Shown here piece by piece: positions 13,253-30,118 of a stretch of 64,000 nt of DNA (its first letter is position 1; each line of letters starts with the position of its first letter). The notes under the pieces are model-generated. The model was given only the letters and a program-made list of their open reading frames with translations. It ran no database searches and was not told the origin of the DNA. The translations under genes were made by a program, and so were the position numbers. The stretch is taken from NCBI GenBank assembly GCA_005239175.1, contig SOPS01000004.1, positions 62,001 through 126,000 of the forward strand. The letters are read 5' to 3'. The stretch comes from a halophilic archaeon SHRA6. GTDB lineage: Archaea; Halobacteriota; Halobacteria; Halobacteriales; Haloferacaceae.

Positions 13253-13795
13253 TCAGCGTTTCCAGAGATCACGTACGTGGAGTTCCATCGGATGGCTCCA
13301 CAGCTGGTGCGCACTGGAGATCGCATAGATTCCTAAGACGAGACTACAGAGCAAAATTGGATCGAGAAGGCCAAAAAGTGGAAGTTCGAGCAGTGAGGCG
13401 AGCACACTGACCATTCCGATGACGCCGACTGCGCGGTAATATTCGCCCCACGTCAGTCCAAAGTACGTGACAACCTCCATGTAGCGAGAGACATCACGTG
13501 CGCGATCGAGTGGTTCGACGGTCCGGGCCTCACGATCGTAATGGATGATACCGAGTTCGTGGAGCTTTGGGAGGTGCGTCTGGTGGAGCGAAGAGTAGAC
13601 ACTGTCGCGTGCGGACTTCGACGGCGATTCGCCGTTGGCTTCTGCCTTGGCAATCATTTCACTGAGTTCGGCGACCGAGACACTCCCGCTGGCGTCTTCG
13701 AGGACGCGAATCGTCTCGAACCGCCGACGGTTTGCCAAGACCTCATATACCTTGAACTGGGGAAGACCAACTGTCTCTATTGTATCAAGCTCCAT
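13253..13795 (-). CDS. DUF7344 winged-helix protein with two membrane helices
   Basis: Residues 10-110 form a winged helix of the haloarchaeal DUF7344 kind ('VYEVLANRRRFETIRVLEDA', 'VYSSLHQTHLPKLHELGIIHYDREARTVEP'). The C-terminal 60 residues hold two hydrophobic helices (VIGMVSVLASLLELPLFGLL and ILLCSLVLGIYAISSAHQL). Such membrane-tethered one-component regulators are common in Halobacteria. It sits next to the surface-protein locus, reading away from it, and could respond to envelope state; that is inference. Confidence 0.8.
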   Translation of the reverse strand: MELDTIETVGLPQFKVYEVLANRRRFETIRVLEDASGSVSVAELSEMIAKAEANGESPSKSARDSVYSSLHQTHLPKLHELGIIHYDREARTVEPLDRARDVSRYMEVVTYFGLTWGEYYRAVGVIGMVSVLASLLELPLFGLLDPILLCSLVLGIYAISSAHQLWSHPMELHVRDLWKR

Positions 13796-14167: not shown

Positions 14168-15484
14168 ATGAAGGACGACAACAGATATGGGCTATCACGG
14201 CGCAAAGCACTGGGTGGAATCGGAATCATTGGCCTTGCCTCCGCGGGAGCGGGCATGGGTACCACGGCGTTTTTCAGCGACGAGGAGAGCTTCGAAGATA
14301 ATAGCCTGGAGGCCGGTGAGCTGGACTTGTACGTCCACTACGACTTTTATGCCGACCAAGGCGAGAAACTCGGCGAATACACTGACTCAGGAACGGTTCA
14401 AGGCAACGAGTCTGACGGCGCGTCTGTCAGCTACGGATTGGAAGACGTCAAACCGGGAGATTCCGGTGAGCTCGAGTTCTGCTTCTCGATCGTCGACAAC
14501 GACGCGTACATGTGGATGTGCGGGGAGCTGACCGAGAACGACGAGAACACCGTCACGGAGCCGGAGGCAGCCTCGGAATACGAGAACAACGATCAAACAG
14601 GCGACGAGATCGATGGTGACGGTGAACTCGCCGACGCTATTGAGGCGACGCTGTACTACTACGATCAGGATGGTGAGACGAAGGGTAGTAAAATATTTGA
14701 CGGGACGCTCCGGGGGGCACTTTTCGCACTCCGCAATGGCGTCCCACTCGACGGCGAGGGTTCCGAGAACCCTGTCGACGATCGCAACCCGTTCATTGGC
14801 GTCGAGAACGACGGCCATCAAAACGATACTTGCGTCCTCCTCGATTGGAAGGTGCCGACCGAAGTTGGGAACGAGATCCAGACGGATTCGGTTGGCTTCG
14901 ATCTCTCGTTCTACGCCGAGCAGTCGCGGCACAATGACGGCACCACCAATCCCTGCGTTACGGGCCGCGAAGGTGAAGGCTTTGCAAAACTTGAAGACGA
15001 ACTCGAGGACGCCAGCTGGCACGCGCGTGGGATCTACGCTGACAATGACACGAGTACTGTTGAGGCCGGCAATGCCGAACTCGACATCCGCGATCCAGGT
15101 GACAATGATCTTACCGAGGGCGGTTCCGAGTGGGGCTCCAGCGGCGACACCAACTCGTTCGAACTTACCATCGACGGCGGGGACGCGATCTGGAGCGTCA
15201 ACGGTGACGAGATCACAGTCGAGGATGCTCCGATCCCGATGGCAGATGGCGTCGGTGTGACGGTTAAATCGTCCAAGGAAGACGCGATCGTGACTGTTGA
15301 GAATATCCTGATCAACGGGAGCACTCCGTCGGGAGCGACGAGCATCAGCGCCGAGGAGGAGACGAATCACATCATCCTCGAAGGGGCGACGCTGCAGGAA
15401 GGTGACGTCATCTCAGGTGACGTGACGTTCGAGTGGGACGACGAACCGTCGGGTGAGGAACTCGGGTTCCGCGTGGACGTCTGA
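14168..15484 (+). CDS. TasA/camelysin-like surface protein with SipW-type signal and an extra C-terminal domain
   Basis: I start at MKDDNRYGLSRRKALGG (438 residues). The signal peptide has a twin-arginine motif (SRRKALGG), a hydrophobic stretch and the SipW-type boundary 'TTAFFSDEESFEDNSLEAGELDL'. The body keeps the family frame: 'LEDVKPGDSGELEFCFSIVDN..YMWMCGELTENDEN', 'GDGELADAIEATLYYYD', 'VPTEVGNEIQTDSVGFDLSFYAEQSRHN'. From about residue 280 a further beta-rich domain follows (AKLEDELEDASWHARGIYAD ... FEWDDEPSGEELGFRVDV), absent from the two paralogues; it resembles lectin-like 'choice-of-anchor' domains. Bacillus TasA and camelysin form biofilm fibres or surface proteins. Fibre formation here is inference. 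Confidence 0.8.
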   Translation: MKDDNRYGLSRRKALGGIGIIGLASAGAGMGTTAFFSDEESFEDNSLEAGELDLYVHYDFYADQGEKLGEYTDSGTVQGNESDGASVSYGLEDVKPGDSGELEFCFSIVDNDAYMWMCGELTENDENTVTEPEAASEYENNDQTGDEIDGDGELADAIEATLYYYDQDGETKGSKIFDGTLRGALFALRNGVPLDGEGSENPVDDRNPFIGVENDGHQNDTCVLLDWKVPTEVGNEIQTDSVGFDLSFYAEQSRHNDGTTNPCVTGREGEGFAKLEDELEDASWHARGIYADNDTSTVEAGNAELDIRDPGDNDLTEGGSEWGSSGDTNSFELTIDGGDAIWSVNGDEITVEDAPIPMADGVGVTVKSSKEDAIVTVENILINGSTPSGATSISAEEETNHIILEGATLQEGDVISGDVTFEWDDEPSGEELGFRVDV

Positions 15485-15527
15485 TCGGAATCGGTTCTTA
15501 ACAACAATCGACCCACGCTGGCACTTC

Positions 15528-15566
15528 GGTGGTTCGACTCCGCCGGTGGGCCTCCCCAGGAGGGGA
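15528..15566 (+). promoter_or_regulatory. Two-hairpin leader with Shine-Dalgarno in a stem-loop (second TasA-like gene)
   Basis: Hairpin 1: GGTGG (15528-15532) and CCGCC (15540-15544) around the loop TTCGACT. Hairpin 2: CCCC (15554-15557) and GGGG (15562-15565) around AGGA, closed by T-A. The ribosome site GGAGG (15559-15563) lies in the loop and 3' arm of hairpin 2, ten bases before the ATG. The next gene has the same leader with GGCGG instead of GGTGG, so pairing is kept as G-U or G-C. Confidence 0.6.
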
Positions 15567-15572
15567 ACACAC

Positions 15573-17078
15573 ATGGCACGCGACAAATACGGACTCTCAC
15601 GACGGAAACTACTCGGCGGCCTCGGAGCGATCGGTGTTGCTTCTGCAGGCACAGGGCTGGGTACGAGCGCGTACTTCAGCGACGAGGAATCGTTCGAGAA
15701 CAACTCCCTGAGCGCGGGGGAACTCGACCTGAAACTTGATTACCGGGCGACCTACGCGGGCGGCCCCGGTCGACTCAACGAGGTTGACAGTTGGTACAGC
15801 GAGGACGGACCCGGCGAACCGTTCGACGTCAAAGAAGAAGAAGAAGGCGTCTACCTAATTGGTGAGGTGCCCTCCCCAACAGAACAAGAAGACTGGCCCA
15901 GTGAGGTTCAACAACAGGACTTCTGTGCGCCTGACGCCGGATTAATAAACGGGGATCAAATCCCGGTTTTCACTCTGGAGGACGTCAAACCCGGCGACTC
16001 TGGCGAAGTCACCGTCAGTCTCCACGTTTGTGATAACCCTGCGTGGATATACATGAACGGTGAGCTGACGGCGAACGACGAGAACGGGCAGACCGAGCCA
16101 GAGGAAGATGTTGACGAGACGGGCGGTGACCCGGGTGAAGGCGACGGCGAGCTTGCTGATGCTATCCGGACGACGTTGTGGTACGACGAGAACTGTAACA
16201 ACGTCCTTGATCGGGGCGACGGAGAGACCGACAGCGACCCACTTTGCGTTCAGCTCGTGCTCGACACCTCTGGGTCGATCGGCGGTGATATCAGTACCGT
16301 TGAAACTGCAGCAAACGACCTCGCAAACGACATCCTCGGCGCGAACGACGACAATCGCACCGGGGCGACGTTGTTTGCCCGTAGCGCTGAGGTAGAAAAC
16401 AGCGTGGGATCGGACTGGGAGGACCTGTCAGGTCTCAGCTCCGGTGGGACCACGAACATGTCGGACGGAATCGACGAGGCAGGAGACGACCTCGACAACT
16501 GTCCCGACGACCACGACCGGATCATGGTCATCTTTACTGATGGCGAACCGAACAGTGAGTCCGATACGCTGGACGAAGCTGACGCTCTTGATGACGATAT
16601 CGAACTCTTCGCGATCGGAGTCTCTGGGGCTGACGAGGAATTCCTCAACGAACTCACGACTGGAGACGAAGACAACGGCGAGAACACCTTCGTTGTTACC
16701 GGTGATACGAACGAACAGGACGCGATCGAACAGGTGTTCGCGCAGGTCTCCGAGACGATCACCGGCGGCGAGGAGGTCATCCTTGAGGACACGCTCGCCA
16801 ACGTGATGAGTGACCTCGAGAAGGGGGTCGCCTTGGACGGGAACCGTTCGACTGAGGAGAGAGAACCATTCGCTGGCGCGATGACCCACTGTCTTGGCTT
16901 CGAGTGGGAAGTCCCTACAGACGTCGGAAACGAAATCCAGACCGATTCGGTTGCATTCGATCTCGGGTTCTACGCTCTTCAGAGCCGGCATAACGACGAT
17001 CCGCCAGCGGAGCCGTTCAACGGAACCTACCAGGACGACAACGGCCTTCCGAACGAGACTGCCAACGCATCCGACTGA
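15573..17078 (+). CDS. TasA-like surface protein with an inserted von Willebrand A domain
   Basis: Start MARDKYGLSRRKLLGG at 15573, placed by a clear Shine-Dalgarno (501 residues). Signal peptide and first strands are nearly identical to the next paralogue (SAYFSDEESFENNSLSAGEL). After 'GDGELADAIRTTLWYDENCN' comes a complete vWA domain of about 175 residues: 'VQLVLDTSGSIGGDI' is the metal-site DxSxS, 'SGGTTNMSDGI' supplies the Thr, 'IMVIFTDGEPNSES' the Asp, and it ends near 'IEQVFAQVSETI'. The TasA frame then resumes ('ILEDTLANVMSDLEKGVALDG', 'VPTDVGNEIQTDSVAFDLGFYALQSRHN'). vWA domains bind protein ligands through Mg2+/Mn2+. This looks like a surface protein displaying an adhesion head. Confidence 0.85.
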   Translation: MARDKYGLSRRKLLGGLGAIGVASAGTGLGTSAYFSDEESFENNSLSAGELDLKLDYRATYAGGPGRLNEVDSWYSEDGPGEPFDVKEEEEGVYLIGEVPSPTEQEDWPSEVQQQDFCAPDAGLINGDQIPVFTLEDVKPGDSGEVTVSLHVCDNPAWIYMNGELTANDENGQTEPEEDVDETGGDPGEGDGELADAIRTTLWYDENCNNVLDRGDGETDSDPLCVQLVLDTSGSIGGDISTVETAANDLANDILGANDDNRTGATLFARSAEVENSVGSDWEDLSGLSSGGTTNMSDGIDEAGDDLDNCPDDHDRIMVIFTDGEPNSESDTLDEADALDDDIELFAIGVSGADEEFLNELTTGDEDNGENTFVVTGDTNEQDAIEQVFAQVSETITGGEEVILEDTLANVMSDLEKGVALDGNRSTEEREPFAGAMTHCLGFEWEVPTDVGNEIQTDSVAFDLGFYALQSRHNDDPPAEPFNGTYQDDNGLPNETANASD

Positions 17079-17147
17079 ACAGCCCACGAGACTTTGGGTC
17101 TCTGGCTTCGCCGGAACACAACCCCGGCCTCGACCCACACGGTGTAC

Positions 17148-17185
17148 GGCGGTTCGACTCCGCCGGTGGGTTTCCCCAGGAGGGG
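17148..17185 (+). promoter_or_regulatory. Two-hairpin leader, copy upstream of the third TasA-like gene
   Basis: GGCGG (17148-17152) pairs with CCGCC (17160-17164) around TTCGACT. CCCC (17174-17177) pairs with GGGG (17182-17185) around AGGA, and here GTGG (17166-17169) can also pair with CCAC (17187-17190). The ribosome site GGAGG (17179-17183) again lies in the second hairpin. About 40 bases up to the ATG at 17193 match the leader of the previous gene, while the bases further upstream do not, which points to selection on the leader or to recent duplication of leader plus signal sequence. Confidence 0.6.
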
Positions 17186-17192
17186 ACCACAT

Positions 17193-18944
17193 ATGACACG
17201 CGGCAAATACGGACTATCACGGCGGAAACTACTCGGTGGAATCGGAGCGATCGGCGTCGCTTCAACAGGCGCTGGATTGGGAACGAGTGCGTACTTCAGC
17301 GACGAGGAGTCCTTCGAGGACAACTCACTCGAAGCCGGACAGCTTGATCTCAATGTCGACTGGGAAGAACACTACAACTACCCGCAGCTGTACGGGTTCG
17401 ATAATCCGACAGACGGACTCGACGTCCGTCGGTCGGAACCGGGAGGAAACGAGGACTACGTCGGTCTTCCGGATCCCAATGATCCGATGATGTGGATCCA
17501 CAAGGACGATCTCGGTGACTACATGGCCAACACCGCGATCGAGGCATTCCCTGATCCGAACGATGACGGACAACAGGAGATCGTGGGCGACGCGTATGAG
17601 CACGGCGTGTTCGATCCCTGCCGCGACGGTGCAGACTTGCCGAAGGATCTCGAACCGGACAGCAATGGGATCGGCCGAACCGACAACGCGGATACGAACA
17701 GCGACGGAGAGCGCCATCCCCTTGTCCACCTCGATGACGTGAACCCCGGCGACTTCGGCGAACTCACGCTGAGCTACCACCTCTGTGACAACCCTGGGTA
17801 CGTCTGGCTCATCGGCGAACTCGTCGAGGAGGACGGTGGCACCCTGACTGAACCCGAAGAGACTGTTGACTCGGACAACTCAGCCGACCTCGCTGATTAC
17901 GTCCAGACAGTCTGGTGGTACGACGACGGCGACAACGTGTTCAACCGCACGGACTCCGCGGGGGTTCTCTATATGACCAATCACAGCGAAAGCGATCCGT
18001 CGACGTTGTACAAGGTTGAACTCGAAGTCAACAACGGGACAGCAACAGCGACGACAGCGGAACTGGTCAACTTCGGTGACAACAACGAAGGCGACCTCGA
18101 CCTCTCGAGGACCCACATTGCGGCTTCAAATGACGGTTCGACAATTTACGTAGTTTCCCAGTTCGGTGAAGGGATCGCGCGGTACGACATCGAAAGCCAA
18201 ACTGTAGCGTACGCGCCGATCGACAGCGATTATGCCGACGATCTCAACAAGATCACCCAGGCTGCCGTCGACACCGACGGACGGCTCTGGATTGGGAGCC
18301 ATACCGACAATAAGCTGTTCGAAATCTCCGACCCGGACGCAGACATCGTAGACGTAACCAATCAGTTTGACCTGGATATCGATATCGAGGGCGCGGACAA
18401 CGTGTTCGCCTCAAGTGGGCAACTGTACCTCTACACAAACGCTGACAACGCGCTCTACACCGTGAACCTCCTGACCGGAGATGTGATGGAAGTCGCCGAA
18501 CTCGAAACTGGTGAGGATCTGACAGGGCTGGCGATCAGTGAGTCGGGCCGTGGTAACTTTGTCGCATCTGTGACAAAAAGTACCGAAATCATCGAGTTCG
18601 ATCTCGACGGGACGGTCCAGGAGCGCTACGAACTCGACGGCGATCTCACCGATCACACTTACGGCGATCTGACAACCGGAGCGCTCTGTGAGCAGGAATT
18701 CACTGTCGGCGATGGTGGAACGCTGCGTGATGATCTCGATGCGCTCGAAGATGGGGTTCAGCTTGATGATCTCGGTATCAAGGAGTGCTTCCAACCCGGG
18801 TTCACCCGGTACATTGGCTTCGCGTGGTGGGTCCCCAGAGACGTCGAAAACGATATTCAAGGCGACACACTGAGCTTTGACCTCGGGTTCTACACCGAGC
18901 AGTGTCGACACAACGGTGAACCGAGTGGACCCTCGAGTGACTGA
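17193..18944 (+). CDS. TasA-like surface protein with an inserted beta-propeller-like domain
   Basis: Start MTRGKYGLSRRKLLGG at 17193 (583 residues). It has the twin-arginine/SipW-type signal, then a longer variable loop (PQLYGFDNPTDGLDVRR ... HGVFDPCRDGADLPKD), then 'LDDVNPGDFGELTLSYHLCDNPGYVWLIGEL'. After 'DLADYVQTVWWYDDGDNVFN' about 235 residues of repeated four-strand units are inserted, e.g. 'GSTIYVVSQFGEGIARYDIE', 'DGRLWIGSHTDNKLFEISD', 'SGQLYLYTNADNALYTVNLL', 'GNFVASVTKSTEIIEFDLDG', as in YncE/SMP-30-type propellers. The frame resumes at 'GGTLRDDLDALEDGVQLDDL' and 'VENDIQGDTLSFDLGFYTEQCRHN'. The insertion point equals that of the vWA domain in the preceding paralogue. Role: surface display, partner unknown. 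Confidence 0.82.
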   Translation: MTRGKYGLSRRKLLGGIGAIGVASTGAGLGTSAYFSDEESFEDNSLEAGQLDLNVDWEEHYNYPQLYGFDNPTDGLDVRRSEPGGNEDYVGLPDPNDPMMWIHKDDLGDYMANTAIEAFPDPNDDGQQEIVGDAYEHGVFDPCRDGADLPKDLEPDSNGIGRTDNADTNSDGERHPLVHLDDVNPGDFGELTLSYHLCDNPGYVWLIGELVEEDGGTLTEPEETVDSDNSADLADYVQTVWWYDDGDNVFNRTDSAGVLYMTNHSESDPSTLYKVELEVNNGTATATTAELVNFGDNNEGDLDLSRTHIAASNDGSTIYVVSQFGEGIARYDIESQTVAYAPIDSDYADDLNKITQAAVDTDGRLWIGSHTDNKLFEISDPDADIVDVTNQFDLDIDIEGADNVFASSGQLYLYTNADNALYTVNLLTGDVMEVAELETGEDLTGLAISESGRGNFVASVTKSTEIIEFDLDGTVQERYELDGDLTDHTYGDLTTGALCEQEFTVGDGGTLRDDLDALEDGVQLDDLGIKECFQPGFTRYIGFAWWVPRDVENDIQGDTLSFDLGFYTEQCRHNGEPSGPSSD

Positions 18945-19289: not shown

Positions 19290-20054
19290 ATGACTGATTG
19301 GGAGCCACCACTCACCCGGCGTCGGTTGTTAGGGACCGCGACAGCCGGTGGGCTACTGTATGCAAGCGCGTCGCTGGTCACGCAGGTCTCAGCCACCGCG
19401 CCGACGCATACCCACTACACGTACGCCCAGACAGATGCTGACGGAACTGACTCCGGTGGCACTGACCCATCGCTGCAGATTGCGTGGCGGCAAGAGTATA
19501 ACGGCAAAATCGTGCATGAATCGCCCGGAAACGCTGCACCCAACGAAACCGACAACTGGTCCGGATCGCCGATCGAAGTGGCCGAGGGGACCAGCCCGAC
19601 GATCGACGAATCAAATCTCCTTCCCGGCGATGAGGGCTGGCTCCACGTCGGGCTCTCCCCAGAGATAGACGAGGCCGACGAGACCGACGAGGTCGCCGCG
19701 TGGTTCCGTCCACGGCTGACCAATGAGGGAAGACTTGCGGACGTCATCGAAGTCGAACTGTGGTATGACACCGGTATTTCGGGGATCGGTGGGTGTGATG
19801 GTGAGAATGGAATCGGTGACGAGTCGATCGGCTCAGGATCGCTTCGAGGGGTATTTACTGACAGAAAACTGCTCAATGGAGCGCGTCTCGCCTGTCTTGG
19901 GGCGGACGATCGGCTCTGTCTGGGATTCACCTGGCGCCTTCCAGAGACAGTCGGCAACGACTATCAGGGCGCTGGTGTCGGCTTTGCAGTTGATTTCGGT
20001 CTGACGTACTGTGCGGACGAAACCAGCCCTTTCATCGACGGAGACGATCCATGA
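19290..20054 (+). CDS. Divergent TasA-like secreted protein
   Basis: The 254-residue protein starts with a Tat-type signal (MTDWEPPLTRRRLLGTATAG ... VSATAPTHTHYTY). The mature part keeps the pattern of the cluster in weaker form: 'IDESNLLPGDEGWLHVGLSPE', 'LADVIEVELWYDTGISGIGG', 'SLRGVFTDRKLLNGARLACLG', 'LCLGFTWRLPETVGNDYQGAGVGFAVDFGLTY'. It lacks the 'FSDEE' SipW boundary. It overlaps the next gene by 4 bp (ATGA), so it is translationally coupled to it. Probably a minor component or cap of the same surface structure; this is inference. Confidence 0.7.
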   Translation: MTDWEPPLTRRRLLGTATAGGLLYASASLVTQVSATAPTHTHYTYAQTDADGTDSGGTDPSLQIAWRQEYNGKIVHESPGNAAPNETDNWSGSPIEVAEGTSPTIDESNLLPGDEGWLHVGLSPEIDEADETDEVAAWFRPRLTNEGRLADVIEVELWYDTGISGIGGCDGENGIGDESIGSGSLRGVFTDRKLLNGARLACLGADDRLCLGFTWRLPETVGNDYQGAGVGFAVDFGLTYCADETSPFIDGDDP

Positions 20055-21124
20055 GCCCGAAGGAATCGGATTCACTCGGATTGAGCCGGCGACAAATCCT
20101 CGGCTTGGTCGGGAGTGCTGGTACAGCAGGCGCATTGACCGGCGCGGCCACCGGTGCGGACCTTTCCGACCGCGAGCGGTTTGCCGATAATTCAGTCACG
20201 ACTGGCAGATTTAGCCTCTCACTTGCGTGTGAACGTGACAGTCAAAACTGCAGCGTAGACCAGCGGACAGTGACTTTGCGCGCTTTAGAGCTCAAACCTG
20301 GTGACTCGGGGGGTGAGACCGTTTCCATAACCGTTGAAGACAACGACGGCTGGGTCTGGCTCCGAACGGCTTGTCCAGAGCCCTCAGCGCTTGCGGACAA
20401 ACTGCAGATCCGGCTTTTGCTTGACGGACAGATCCTCAAGAATGCAGACGGCGAGGACGTTGCTGGGTCGCTCTCAGCCGTCCAAAAACAACTCGTCGAC
20501 GGGGTTCGGCTCACTCCCGATGGTGCAAACTGTTTCACTGCGGGAGAGAGTTCGGATCTGGAAATCGAGTACCAACTTCCCGACGATGTTGGTTCGAACC
20601 TCGAAGATACAGAGACGAACGCACGTTTCCAGTTCCACGCCGAACAGTGCCGGCACAACGCATCGCCCGTGAATCCCTTCAGTGAATATTCGTGCGAAGA
20701 ACGCTGTGTGCCATGTGAAGGCGATGACGGTGATAAAATCGCCCGTGCGACCTTTGAGTACGAGGGACCTGAGACGACTGTCGAATTAGCACAGGGGAGT
20801 ACGAGTTCAAACACTCAAGACGGTAAACGCGCCAGCGAAGGGGAGTCGGTACTCAGTGAACCGGTTTCGTCGGGTGACACAGTTACTGCTGAGTTCCATG
20901 GTGAGACGCACTATGGACCGAATATCGATTTCATCGCTGCTGAAGAGACGATCGCCTGTTTCCATATCAGTTGTTCTGAGCCATTCGGTCCGGGACTGCA
21001 GATCACGGGCGAACACGATGGGAATACCTACAGCCTGACTGTCGTCTCAGCAGAAGATACTGACGGAACTACACTCTGTTCTGTGGACGCATCGGCAAAA
21101 AACCGCTGTAACGGGGGATCATAA
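20051..21124 (+). CDS. TasA-like secreted protein with SipW-type signal and C-terminal extension
   Basis: The 357 residues open with MSPKESDSLGLSRRQILGLV and the SipW-like boundary 'GADLSDRERFADNSVTTGRFSL'. The family frame is visible: 'LRALELKPGDSGGETVSITVEDNDGWVWL', 'LADKLQIRLLLDG', 'SLSAVQKQLVDGVRLT', 'YQLPDDVGSNLEDTETNARFQFHAEQCRHN'. After residue 220 comes a separate domain rich in paired cysteines (YSCEERCVPCEGDDG; ACFHISCSEPF; LCSVDASAKNRC), with no family I recognise. It overlaps the previous gene and is 2 bp upstream of the signal peptidase gene, so it belongs to the same operon. Confidence 0.75.
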   Translation: MSPKESDSLGLSRRQILGLVGSAGTAGALTGAATGADLSDRERFADNSVTTGRFSLSLACERDSQNCSVDQRTVTLRALELKPGDSGGETVSITVEDNDGWVWLRTACPEPSALADKLQIRLLLDGQILKNADGEDVAGSLSAVQKQLVDGVRLTPDGANCFTAGESSDLEIEYQLPDDVGSNLEDTETNARFQFHAEQCRHNASPVNPFSEYSCEERCVPCEGDDGDKIARATFEYEGPETTVELAQGSTSSNTQDGKRASEGESVLSEPVSSGDTVTAEFHGETHYGPNIDFIAAEETIACFHISCSEPFGPGLQITGEHDGNTYSLTVVSAEDTDGTTLCSVDASAKNRCNGGS

Positions 21125-21126
21125 AA

Positions 21127-22290
21127 ATGGATCACGCGAAAGTCGGGAAAACTCTTGGAGTATTGTTGCTGATTGCACTGGTTGTTCCGTTCGTCATCTA
21201 CGCGGCCCCATGGGTGATCGGTGCGGATGCGAGCTACGTCGTGCTCACCGCAAGCATGACGCCAGCGATCTCTCCGGGGGACGTCGTCATTGTTGCCGAA
21301 CAGAATCCTGAGACGATCAGTGAGGGAGATATTATCACGTTCAATCGAGGTGACGAAAACGTGCCAACAACACACCGCGTTATTGGCGTTACGGAAACCG
21401 CAAACGGCCCCGAATTCGAGACAAAAGGTGATGCCAACGAGGATCCCGATGCGGGTACTGTTTCGCCTGACCAGTTCGTCGGCTCAGTAATACTCACGAT
21501 TCCGCTTATCGGGTATGTGACCCAGTTTGCCAGCTCAACGATGGGTTTTATTCTTCTCGTCGTGGTCCCGTTTGGGCTCTTGTTGGCCACTGAGGTCTGG
21601 TCGATCGTCCGAAGCAAAGCCGAGCCGGACGAATCGTCTGGGAGCGGCAGCCAATCGGAATCCGTCGAAAACGACGAACGCCCAGCAATGATCGAACCTA
21701 AGCAATCTTCGATGAGCGACACCGAAACTGACGCTAGTGGAGATTCGCTCACCGAGTCGACCACTCCCGAACAGATCGACGATAGCGAACAGTTAGGAGT
21801 ACCTGCACCTCAGTCGGCATCACATCAAGAGCAGTCTGAAGAATCAGCGGAGGAGCTGACGATCACTGCGACCGATCTCACAGTTTCGACACTCATACTC
21901 GCTGTCTTCGCCGGATACAGCGTGTATATCGCGTTCAATGTGACTACCGCTCAGACGATCGGTGTTGCGGTTGGTATTACGACGACGTTCCTCATCGGAT
22001 TGGGTATTCGTCTGTCGTCAATTCTCTACACAATGCGATTGCGGGGGGAATCCGACTCAGCCCCTGCCACTGGGTCGTCAAACGATACTCAACCGCAGGC
22101 CGATCGAACCGCCGGAGATCGGGGTCCACAGACGACTGATGGAGGTGTCGACGTTACGGAGGGTGAGAGCCTCGAGGAATCAAATGACGCTGTTGCCGTT
22201 GAACCGGCAGAAAGTGAGGCCGTTGAATCAGCGGATAGAGAGGCTGTTGAACCGGCAGACGATCGAGACAAAGGGGGTACGCCGAAATGA
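21127..22290 (+). CDS. SipW-like signal peptidase I with an acidic, membrane-spanning C-terminal extension
   Basis: Residues 1-165 are an archaeal/SipW-type signal peptidase: a first helix (residues 8-30), then 'SYVVLTASMTPAISPGDVVIV' with catalytic Ser43, 'VPTTHRVIGV' with His83 (archaeal SipW-type enzymes use Ser-His rather than Ser-Lys), 'FETKGDANEDPD' with conserved Asp, and a second helix (FILLVVVPFGLLLATEVW). The next 220 residues are unusual: an acidic Ser/Gln/Glu linker, two more helices near 255-300 and a second acidic tail. It lies in the operon of its presumed substrates, which carry SipW-type boundaries, as tasA and sipW do in Bacillus. Confidence 0.85.
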   Translation: MDHAKVGKTLGVLLLIALVVPFVIYAAPWVIGADASYVVLTASMTPAISPGDVVIVAEQNPETISEGDIITFNRGDENVPTTHRVIGVTETANGPEFETKGDANEDPDAGTVSPDQFVGSVILTIPLIGYVTQFASSTMGFILLVVVPFGLLLATEVWSIVRSKAEPDESSGSGSQSESVENDERPAMIEPKQSSMSDTETDASGDSLTESTTPEQIDDSEQLGVPAPQSASHQEQSEESAEELTITATDLTVSTLILAVFAGYSVYIAFNVTTAQTIGVAVGITTTFLIGLGIRLSSILYTMRLRGESDSAPATGSSNDTQPQADRTAGDRGPQTTDGGVDVTEGESLEESNDAVAVEPAESEAVESADREAVEPADDRDKGGTPK

Positions 22291-22787
22291 ACAAAAAAAC
22301 AATCAGTGTTGTTGCCGTTGCTGTGATCCTATTTTTGGCCGCATTCAGCGGGAGTGCAACTACCGTCTCGTATCTTACCGATGGCGGTCAGACCGATGTC
22401 AATTTTTCGACGAGCGATTCGTTTGAAACCAGCGGCGAAGAAGCCGGAGGGAGCGATAAGAAAGAAAGCGACGGAGTCAAAAACGAAACCGAAGGGACCG
22501 ACAAAGAAAAAAGAGAAAGCGATGACGAGGAGGGACGTGACGAATCAAGTGAGGATCAAAAAGAAAGCGCTGACGAAGATGAAAGCGATGAGGGCGACGA
22601 AGATGAAAGCGATGAGGGCGACGAAGATGAAAGCGATGAGGGCGACGAAGATGAAAGCGATGAGGGCGACGAAGAAACCACTAGCGATACTCAAGAAAGC
22701 GAAGGTGGAGAAAGTGACAGCGAGGATGATAAAAGCGATGGCGATGGGCAAGAAGATGACGACGACGAGGAACAAAAGGACGAATAA
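22287..22787 (+). CDS. Acidic repeat protein with SipW-type signal peptide
   Basis: The 166-residue protein starts inside the stop codon of the signal peptidase gene (ATGA overlap). Residues 1-40 form a signal peptide with the same style of boundary as the cluster (AAFSGSATTVSYLTDGGQTDVNF). Everything after about residue 45 is low-complexity Glu/Asp/Ser/Lys, including four perfect EDESDEGD repeats. A chain with this charge would be fully extended and hydrated in brine; it could be a surface brush, spacer or cation-binding tail. No folded domain is seen. Confidence 0.75.
   Translation: MNKKTISVVAVAVILFLAAFSGSATTVSYLTDGGQTDVNFSTSDSFETSGEEAGGSDKKESDGVKNETEGTDKEKRESDDEEGRDESSEDQKESADEDESDEGDEDESDEGDEDESDEGDEDESDEGDEETTSDTQESEGGESDSEDDKSDGDGQEDDDDEEQKDE
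22575..22670. repeat. Four 24-bp tandem repeats in the acidic protein gene
   Basis: Four identical units (22575, 22599, 22623, 22647) begin GAAGATGAAAGCGATGAGGG and end CGAC, encoding EDESDEGD. Identity at the DNA level, including synonymous positions, means recent expansion, so the copy number is likely to vary between strains. Confidence 0.92.
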
Positions 22788-28325: not shown

Positions 28326-29276
28326 ATGGTCGAAAAGAGTCACTTCCGGGTTATGTCACACCTCATAGAAGAGGGTGCGTCGGAAGTAAGTATCAGCACG
28401 CTCGCTGATCAACTCGAATGGAGTCCTGGCCACGTCTCACGTATCGTCTCCGAACTAGAAGCGTACGGCTACGTCCAAACCAAACAGAGCGGTCGGAAAA
28501 AGCTGGTCTCGCTTACGGATATCGAGCCGATCGAGCAACTTGAGGGGCTTCTCACCGAATACAGCCATATGGATCTCTCCGGCCACATCGCCGGTTCTGG
28601 GTTACAAATTCTCTATTATCTCGATCAAGGATGGACTGCGACCGAGTTGGCCGAACGGAGTGGTGTTAGCCAGGCAACAGTGTACCGTCGCTTAGCTGAT
28701 CTCCAGCGCGTTGGTGTCATCGGGAAATCGAAGTCTCGATATCGTCTCAACGATCCGTTTACAGTATTGGTCTCCATCGCCAGAGGGCTGTTCCATCAGA
28801 AACACCGGCGTGAAGCAGAAAAATATGCGACTGGACTCAACTTTATCTGGGAAACACACGACGAGTATCTCTTCGCGTGTGACTCTGATGTTAGCGCTGA
28901 TGGGTTTTTCTTGACCGGGCCAGCGCTGTTCGGTGAATTCGGCGTCCCGCTTCTCACCCGTGATCGGCGGCATTACTTCCGGACGGATCGACTCTCGGAA
29001 ATCACTCCCGCGGAGTTAGTCTGCCACACGCTGCTCATTGATGATGGCTCTCGATACCGAACGTACTGTCTGTTGCTGATACAGAAACAAGGAATCGATC
29101 GAACTGTGCTCCAAGAGCACGCTGAACACTACGTATCCGAGTTGACGATCGATCTACGCGCTACCATTGACGAGCTCATCGAATTCCTGGAGTCGAAAGG
29201 CACCGTCACGGCTGAGCAACTGCCCGAATGGGAAGATTTCAAACAAACAGCGAGAGAGTACGAGGTCACTGTATGA
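28326..29276 (+). CDS. Double winged-helix protein, antitoxin-like partner of a DUF6036 nucleotidyltransferase
   Basis: The 316-residue protein has two winged helices: residues 5-65 ('VSISTLADQLEWSPGHVSRIVSELEAYGYVQTKQSGRKKLVSLT') and 90-145 ('LQILYYLDQGWTATELAERSGVSQATVYRRLADLQRVGVIGKSKSRYRLND'). A C-terminal alpha/beta domain follows (ETHDEYLFACDSDVSADGFFLTGPALFGEFGVPLLT...). Its stop overlaps the start of the nucleotidyltransferase gene (ATGA). The order, regulator then nucleotidyltransferase, is that of AbiE-type toxin-antitoxin systems, in which the HTH protein represses the operon and counters the toxin. That role is inferred from arrangement only. Confidence 0.7.
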   Translation: MVEKSHFRVMSHLIEEGASEVSISTLADQLEWSPGHVSRIVSELEAYGYVQTKQSGRKKLVSLTDIEPIEQLEGLLTEYSHMDLSGHIAGSGLQILYYLDQGWTATELAERSGVSQATVYRRLADLQRVGVIGKSKSRYRLNDPFTVLVSIARGLFHQKHRREAEKYATGLNFIWETHDEYLFACDSDVSADGFFLTGPALFGEFGVPLLTRDRRHYFRTDRLSEITPAELVCHTLLIDDGSRYRTYCLLLIQKQGIDRTVLQEHAEHYVSELTIDLRATIDELIEFLESKGTVTAEQLPEWEDFKQTAREYEVTV

Positions 29277-30118
29277 GTTCTCGTGAACGATTCGGCCGTG
29301 ACTATATCGAGGTCGAACTCCGGCGGATCGCAGATCATCTCCAGACTGACGTCGAGGTGTATCTCATCGGCGGTGGCGCGATGTCACTCCACGAGCCGTC
29401 TCTCAAGGACACGACCAAAGACATCGATCTCGTTGTTGTGGATGAGACGGCCCTCAGCCGCCTGATGGGGGTGCTTGACGACCTCGGGTACGAGGAAGTC
29501 ACCGATCTCGGTGACGAGTACGACCGATTGGGAGCACGCCACTGCGTACGAAACGACGCCGGCTGTCAGTTCGACGTCTTTTATCGACAGATCGCCGATA
29601 AGCTGTTCTTCAGCGATGGAATGCAAGCGCGAAGCGAACCGTTTCTCTCGAAGGAGTATTTCTCGGTCGGCCTCGTCTCGTTTGAGGACATCTTTCTCTT
29701 CAAAGCCGTCGCAGAACGCCCGGACGATATCGCTGATATGGCCACGCTCGTTCAGACGGATCTCGACTTCGAAGTCATCGAATCTGAACTCGAACGTCAG
29801 GTGGAACTCCTGGGCGGGGAATTCTTCGTCACGGTGGTTTCCGAATCTTTGGAGCGACTTGACGAAAATGAGGGAATCCAAACGCCACTCGATGACATCG
29901 TTCAAGAGTACTATCTACGGTATATGGAAGGATACGAACTCCGAATGCAGTTAGACGAGCACACCCCAAAGTCCGTGAGCGAACTGGCCACGGAGTTGAG
30001 CGTTTCAGACGAAGAGATCGAGCGCCGTTTTGAGTATCTAGAACAGTACGGATTTGCTAACCGAACTTCTGAGGGAATTCGGGATACGGGAAAGCACGAC
30101 GAATTCACAAGATCGTGA
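29273..30118 (+). CDS. DUF6036-type nucleotidyltransferase, possible toxin
   Basis: Start at MSSRERFGRDYIEVEL (281 residues). The nucleotidyltransferase core reads 'VEVYLIGGGAMSLHEPSLKDTTKDIDLVVVDE': Gly-Gly before a Ser/Leu helix, then D50-I-D52 as metal ligands, with D101 in 'CQFDVFYRQ' as a likely third acid. This matches DUF6036/AbiEii-like enzymes. Residues 240-275 form an extra winged helix ('PKSVSELATELSVSDEEIERRFEYLEQYGFANR'). AbiEii-type toxins add nucleotides to tRNA; the substrate here is unknown. It is translationally coupled to the double winged-helix gene. Confidence 0.75.
   Translation: MSSRERFGRDYIEVELRRIADHLQTDVEVYLIGGGAMSLHEPSLKDTTKDIDLVVVDETALSRLMGVLDDLGYEEVTDLGDEYDRLGARHCVRNDAGCQFDVFYRQIADKLFFSDGMQARSEPFLSKEYFSVGLVSFEDIFLFKAVAERPDDIADMATLVQTDLDFEVIESELERQVELLGGEFFVTVVSESLERLDENEGIQTPLDDIVQEYYLRYMEGYELRMQLDEHTPKSVSELATELSVSDEEIERRFEYLEQYGFANRTSEGIRDTGKHDEFTRS

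Follow-up and report, generated by a model that had tools for sequence, protein, structure and literature searches.

TasA-like proteins of haloarchaea with unrelated domains in one loop of a common frame: candidate subunits for fibre display

Fibres of TasA from Bacillus subtilis and its camelysin-like relatives are the closest described counterparts of three adjacent genes that we analysed in the haloarchaeon SHRA6 (assembly GCA_005239175.1, contig SOPS01000004.1, positions 62,001–126,000, forward strand; this whole stretch of 64,000 nt is referred to as the window). The most conserved part of the interface between protomers in TasA fibres is a "proline box" made up of residues F29, P62 and Q232 (PMC10151520), and the DGKT loop at residues 174–177 is the part that projects furthest from the fibre and serves bundling (PMC9674648). 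The insertion of a von Willebrand factor A (vWA) domain into a beta-sandwich is already known from bacterial pilus-tip adhesins, since the D2 stalk domain of Mfa5 is split into two segments that enclose the folded vWA domain, and RrgA and GBS104 are folded in a similar way (PMC7835359). Among archaea, other euryarchaeal loci of the SipW type (e.g. L115 and L116) likewise hold SipW-like peptidases beside several TasA-like genes. Archaeal bundling pili of Pyrobaculum (AbpA/AbpX) are also TasA-like fibres, and to our knowledge they have no inserted heads. The proteins of the window share with TasA a SipW-type signal peptide, a KPGD strand, a closing strand leading to a conserved Gln, the proline-box residues and a SipW-like peptidase encoded nearby. 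Unlike TasA, the haloarchaeal subunits have a twin-arginine signal, large domains (hereafter heads) that are inserted in loops or placed C-terminally, several paralogues per locus and additional frame-like genes, whereas the other euryarchaeal proteins are ~150–320 residues long, had no recognised heads in the loci read and did not display a twin arginine in the N-termini read.

The three genes are consecutive (14168–15484, 15573–17078 and 17193–18944, all on the + strand; genes 1, 2 and 3). Each begins with a twin-arginine signal peptide, the end of which matched the SipW-type signal-peptide model TIGR04088 at 28.4, 27.4 and 25.6 bits, respectively (cut-off 19). Behind it lies a common frame, consisting of a DVKPGDSGE strand, an ELADAI..WYD segment, a GTL..L..G.PLDG segment and closing strands of the type VGNEIQTDS.FDL.FYAEQ.RHN, which occur in all three proteins and take the form ENDIQGDTLSFDLGFYTEQCRHN in gene 3. 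The loop that joins the WYD strand to the GTL segment, termed port 1, holds a vWA domain in gene 2 and a beta-propeller in gene 3; it is short in gene 1, which has an extra domain at its C-terminus (Table 1). The first-pass annotation of this DNA had described nearly the same signal peptide and closing strands in all three proteins, as well as the short loop and extra C-terminal domain of the first, and these descriptions held. Genes 2 and 3 also share a 207-nt repeat with 82% identity (15527–15733 vs 17147–17353) that spans upstream DNA and signal-peptide codons, which suggests that their 5' ends were recently duplicated or exchanged.

Relatives were gathered with an alignment of the frame only, yielding 69 loci from records of haloarchaeal genomes and of one nanohaloarchaeon; these are the loci closest to the window's frame, and the shares given below therefore describe near relatives. 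When compared with solved structures, the haloarchaeal frame profile by itself matched TasA weakly and over the KPGD strand only (E = 0.005). A joint profile of the frame and its other euryarchaeal relatives matched the crystal and fibre entries of TasA (5OF1/8AUR) with E values of 2.2e-6 and 2.9e-6, aligning query positions 67–233 with TasA chain positions 12–206, and found AbpX (9sj2) at an E value of only 0.18. The non-haloarchaeal profile alone also found TasA (E = 3.6e-7), and hhalign related the haloarchaeal frame to the other euryarchaeal TasA-like proteins with 99.9% probability. By these profile comparisons the relationship to TasA proposed in the first-pass annotation holds, and the frame can be regarded as homologous to TasA over most of the length of TasA. 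In the printed alignment, P62 of the proline box corresponds to the Pro of KPGD and Q232 to the Gln of the closing strand, and F29 corresponds by position to the Phe directly after the signal peptide. Among 200 frame proteins the equivalents were kept in 186 (F), 196 (P) and 198 (Q), with all three present in 183, and this was seen in every class of single-head protein.

AlphaFold models of genes 2 and 3, based on aligned proteins from the window and the related loci, had a predicted local distance difference test (pLDDT) score of 79.7 and a predicted TM-score (pTM) of 0.76 for gene 2, and of 71.3 and 0.56 for gene 3. In the model of gene 2, frame strands E143–153, E157–169 and E199–204 precede the vWA domain and E402–407, E437–446 and E459–470 come after it; in that of gene 3, E188–198, E202–214 and E238–244 precede the propeller and E538–546 and E559–570 come after it. 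Because frame strands flank each head on both sides, the models confirm the claim of the first-pass annotation that the vWA domain and the propeller are insertions within the predicted frame; separate terminal domains, the outcome that it had named as a refutation, were not what the models showed. The head of gene 2, with model boundaries at about residues 220–400, matched PF00092 over residues 228–376 (50.7 bits, cut-off 23.8) and has a complete metal-ion-dependent adhesion site (MIDAS; DxSxS, Thr, Asp), formed by D231, S233, S235, T294 and D323. Its best match in the fold search was ANTXR2 (1t6b_Y; Z 20.5, root-mean-square deviation 2.0 over 159 residues), and integrin I domains and the pilus-tip protein Mfa5 (6to1, Z 19.1) were matched as well. 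In the alignment of 53 gene 2-type proteins, PF00092 was reached at E 0.001 by 49, and the MIDAS positions were occupied by D in 53, S or T in 53, S in 53, T in 51 and D in 50, suggesting that these heads may bind in a metal-dependent manner. The predicted structure of the gene 3 head (residues ~250–498) matched glutaminyl cyclase, NHL, YWTD, kelch and designed propellers with Z scores of 14–17, and family libraries returned weak matches to DUF6923, DUF4394 and SGL, all below cut-off; the fold suggests a second binding surface. Both head assignments, including the complete metal site, are thus as first described, and adhesion is the job that we infer for the two. A vWA domain with a complete MIDAS between two beta-sandwich segments of a fibre subunit is the design of Mfa5, RrgA and GBS104 (PMC7835359); unlike these adhesins, which have a CnaA/Ig-like stalk and other assembly routes, the haloarchaeal proteins accept other types of head at port 1 and have a frame akin to TasA, so that the vWA frame would work like a bacterial tip adhesin without being a member of that group.

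The frame was present in 143 of 292 sampled class genomes and in 51 of 77 genera. Where all three segments of the frame could be recognised in a relative, the gap at port 1 was shorter than 60 residues in 94 proteins and longer than 180 in 98, with none in between, and because of this bimodality the shared insertion site is not due to chance. The 108 distinct port-1 inserts fell into two clusters, one of 105 with the vWA domains and one of 3 propellers. The propeller type of gene 3 was encoded in 9 of the 292 genomes, lying in a frame at port 1 in 7 (SHRA6 itself included) and in a protein lacking the frame in 2 (L128:1210-2622, + strand; L132:1126-2397, - strand); these frameless proteins are a possible source of the gene 3 head. 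The exact reuse of one loop, as the first-pass annotation had put it, holds for genes 2 and 3 but describes only some of the relatives, and the vWA insertion is no local peculiarity: among the 200 frame proteins a head was placed at port 1 in 95, nearly always as a vWA domain and thus in the commonest architecture, before the KPGD strand (port 0) in 8, after PLDG (port 2) in 13 and at the C-terminus in 60. A head was scored at port 0 when the N-terminal segment exceeded 300 residues, and no segment was 180–300 residues long. Heads at ports 0 and 2 had no family match in Pfam or NCBIfam; C-terminal heads of relatives included VWA_4 and beta-helix domains. Port 2 aligns directly after the 174–177 loop of TasA, with modest alignment accuracy (0.62). 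Overall, 23 proteins had no head, 176 had one and a single protein (in L062) had two, such that 176 of 177 head-bearing proteins carried exactly one. When the proteins were grouped into 50 clusters at 50% identity, which removes relatedness only in part, 1 multi-head cluster was observed against 9.5 expected, and so low a count was reached in 0 of 5000 shuffles.

Several relatives extended this range. A C-terminal head of ~1400 residues with multicopper oxidase domains (Cu-oxidase_2 and _3) was fused to the frame in L121:1557-6704 (-) and L122:4915-10110 (+), and a PKD-rich insert of ~450 residues occupied yet another loop, after a TEPE segment, in L120:15077-17995 (-). The frame protein of Nanohaloarchaeon SG9, whose group lives on haloarchaeal hosts, had ~400 additional C-terminal residues (L064:9989-11878, +), and another copy of the frame was held by Halobacterium bonnevillei (L029).

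The chances seem to us evenly balanced that the trio encodes TasA-like subunits of a mixed fibre, each of them displaying one ready-made head. The twin arginine points to export in the folded state through the twin-arginine translocation route, after which the SipW-like peptidase encoded in the locus would trim the subunits and free an N-terminal strand. This strand would be donated to the sandwich of a neighbouring subunit, linking the two, and a head, whether inserted in a loop or placed C-terminally, would lie away from the joint and leave it undisturbed. On such a mixed fibre the vWA domain would be displayed as a metal-dependent adhesin, together with the propeller and the anchor-W-type domain. 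The proposal is favoured by the profile match to TasA, the conserved proline-box and MIDAS residues, the SipW-like gene and twin arginine of related loci, the near-universal limit of one head per protein and the alignment of port 2 next to the projecting loop of TasA. Several points weigh against it. The F29 equivalent adjoins the presumed signal-peptidase site, from which its conservation could stem; confidence in the gene 3 model is moderate; and the fold searches bear on the heads only, since vWA or propeller domains took up the Foldseek/VIA lists and the absence of TasA from them is therefore uninformative. In addition, no plain headless SipW-type subunit that would be obvious as the main fibre protein was found in the window cluster, and no report of a fibre of this kind came up in the open literature searched.

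An alternative that we consider somewhat unlikely is that the head-bearing proteins are rare tip or minor subunits on a fibre whose body is made of a different protein, as in the vWA-tipped bacterial pili. The likeness of the gene 2 head and its placement to Mfa5 fits such a role, as does the occurrence of headless frames in 23 of the 200 relatives and in a second cluster of the SHRA6 genome, which follows the same plan as the first with a headless frame, two vWA frames, an anchor-W-like frame, two frame-like genes, a peptidase and an acidic protein. Most loci, however, consist mainly of head-bearing frames: the commonest gene set, one C-terminal-head and two port-1-head genes, was found in 19 of 52 loci, and a headless frame in only 16 of 52.

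It is also conceivable, but in our view quite unlikely, that the proteins combine the TasA fold and the SipW route without polymerising, and act as monomeric stalks or surface-layer accessories that present a head. In favour of this, the frames have long and variable N-terminal regions ahead of the KPGD strand, and TasA itself also occurs as a stable self-complemented monomer (PMC9674648). Against this stand the near invariance of the three proline-box residues, whose role in TasA lies between protomers, and the grouping of several frame genes with a SipW-like peptidase, as in tasA operons.

Whether heads moved between frames was addressed with trees made on the frame only, from which the heads had been excised. 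A careful tree, computed with a mixture model on 69 rows, united three propeller and three vWA frames in one clade (support 99/98), and its well-supported branches required the vWA label to change no fewer than 6 times. In a tree with five further propeller frames, one clade of 11 rows held 8 propeller and 3 vWA frames (100/97), and the propeller frames were monophyletic in 0 of 200 bootstrap trees, though the well-supported branches alone would still permit a single propeller group. One added row (L127) was poorly trimmed at its N-terminus, and exchange of 5' ends between paralogues could distort the tree. Since propeller and vWA frames are intermixed in a single well-supported clade, the frame sequences indicate that heads have been exchanged, and together with the presence of two unrelated domains in one loop of a homologous frame this bears out the modular scaffold with swappable heads envisaged in the first-pass annotation. 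An improbable alternative is that a vWA domain entered the loop once and was thereafter inherited vertically or lost, with the propeller as a single oddity. The vWA frames did cluster strongly on the first tree, and counts of change cannot separate gain from loss; that tree, in which L054_13391 bore a wrong vWA label and long branches were drawn together, was superseded by the careful trees with the label corrected, and the forced label changes, the mixed clade, the free-standing relatives of the propeller and the occupation of other ports by unrelated heads all argue against a single entry. That the proteins are secreted metalloproteases of the camelysin family can practically be dismissed, as Peptidase_M73 (PF12389) is the best Pfam match of the frame but matched the window proteins in the signal-peptide region only, at 14.7, 18.8 and 18.4 bits against a gathering threshold of 22.5.

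Returning to the proposal of mixed fibres, we tentatively extend it, with rather less confidence, to a general haloarchaeal system for fibre display, in which one TasA-like frame would offer no fewer than three ports in its interior and another at the C-terminus. Each subunit would carry exactly one exchangeable head (vWA, propeller, PKD-rich insert, beta-helix or whole multicopper oxidases), and the subunits would assemble into mixed fibres by a donor-strand joint that the heads leave intact. If the frames polymerise, haloarchaea would possess a platform on which binding and enzyme domains are exchanged in evolution while the assembly joint stays the same, a large and poorly named family would acquire a function, a link would be drawn between the surface fibres of haloarchaea and those of TasA in Bacillus, and a vWA domain within a fibre-type subunit would be documented on a further, different frame. 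The ports also suggest natural insertion points for protein display on an archaeal fibre. Neither a TasA-like frame with several ports nor this haloarchaeal arrangement was described in the open literature searched, which leaves out many journals, and the novelty of the head-bearing frame is for that reason provisional.

Table 1. Frame genes, heads and neighbouring genes in the window.
Feature	Coordinates	Strand	Evidence
Gene 1 frame: SipW-type/twin-arginine signal peptide and TasA-like sandwich, no internal head	14168..14938	+	TIGR04088, 28.4 bits; profile kinship to TasA
Gene 1 C-terminal head, choice-of-anchor W-like	14939..15484	+	NF041928, E 2e-11, 43.8 bits, slightly below cut-off 45
Gene 2, TasA-like frame with vWA at port 1	15573..17078	+	PF00092, TIGR04088, AlphaFold model
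vWA head of gene 2, residues ~220-400	16230..16772	+	PF00092; fold match to ANTXR2; MIDAS kept in relatives
Gene 3, TasA-like frame with beta-propeller at port 1	17193..18944	+	TIGR04088, AlphaFold model, fold search
Propeller head of gene 3, residues ~250-498	17940..18686	+	Z 14-17 to propellers; same insert in frames of relatives
Divergent frame-like subunit with twin arginine; SipW-type N-terminus absent, closing Gln apparently absent	19290..20054	+	No TIGR04088 match; homologue in 46/53 full loci
Another frame-like subunit, having a C-terminal region of its own	20051..21124	+	Homologue in 53/53 full loci, though other frame genes may match too
SipW-like archaeal signal peptidase I	21127..22290	+	TIGR02228, 97.7 bits, cut-off 51.85; in 49/53 related loci
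Small acidic protein with tandem DESDEGDE repeats and N-terminal hydrophobic stretch	22287..22787	+	Overlaps peptidase gene
Divergent DUF7344 gene, candidate regulator	13253..13795	-	PF24035, E 2.5e-24; homologue in 52/53 loci

The two frame-like genes that follow the trio and the SipW-like peptidase gene belong to the same locus (Table 1). Among the 53 full-length related loci, 48 encoded at least one protein with an insert of the vWA group, and the counts for the peptidase, the DUF7344 gene and the 19290-type subunit are listed in the table. In 48 of the 49 loci with a SipW-like gene, all frame genes were encoded on its strand, and the twin arginine was present in 231 of 231. The peptidase also matched the SipW model NF046067 at 94.9 bits, which is below its cut-off of 190. 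The divergent subunit at 19290–20054 is a candidate cap or anchor, which could stand at the start or the end of a fibre or fix it in place. The acidic-protein gene is probably co-transcribed with the peptidase gene, and an analogous gene comes after the peptidase in the second cluster of the genome. Elsewhere in the window (28326–30118), an HVO_2833-like winged-helix gene is followed by an overlapping DUF6036 nucleotidyltransferase gene, a pair that resembles a regulatory or toxin-antitoxin-type unit of two genes.

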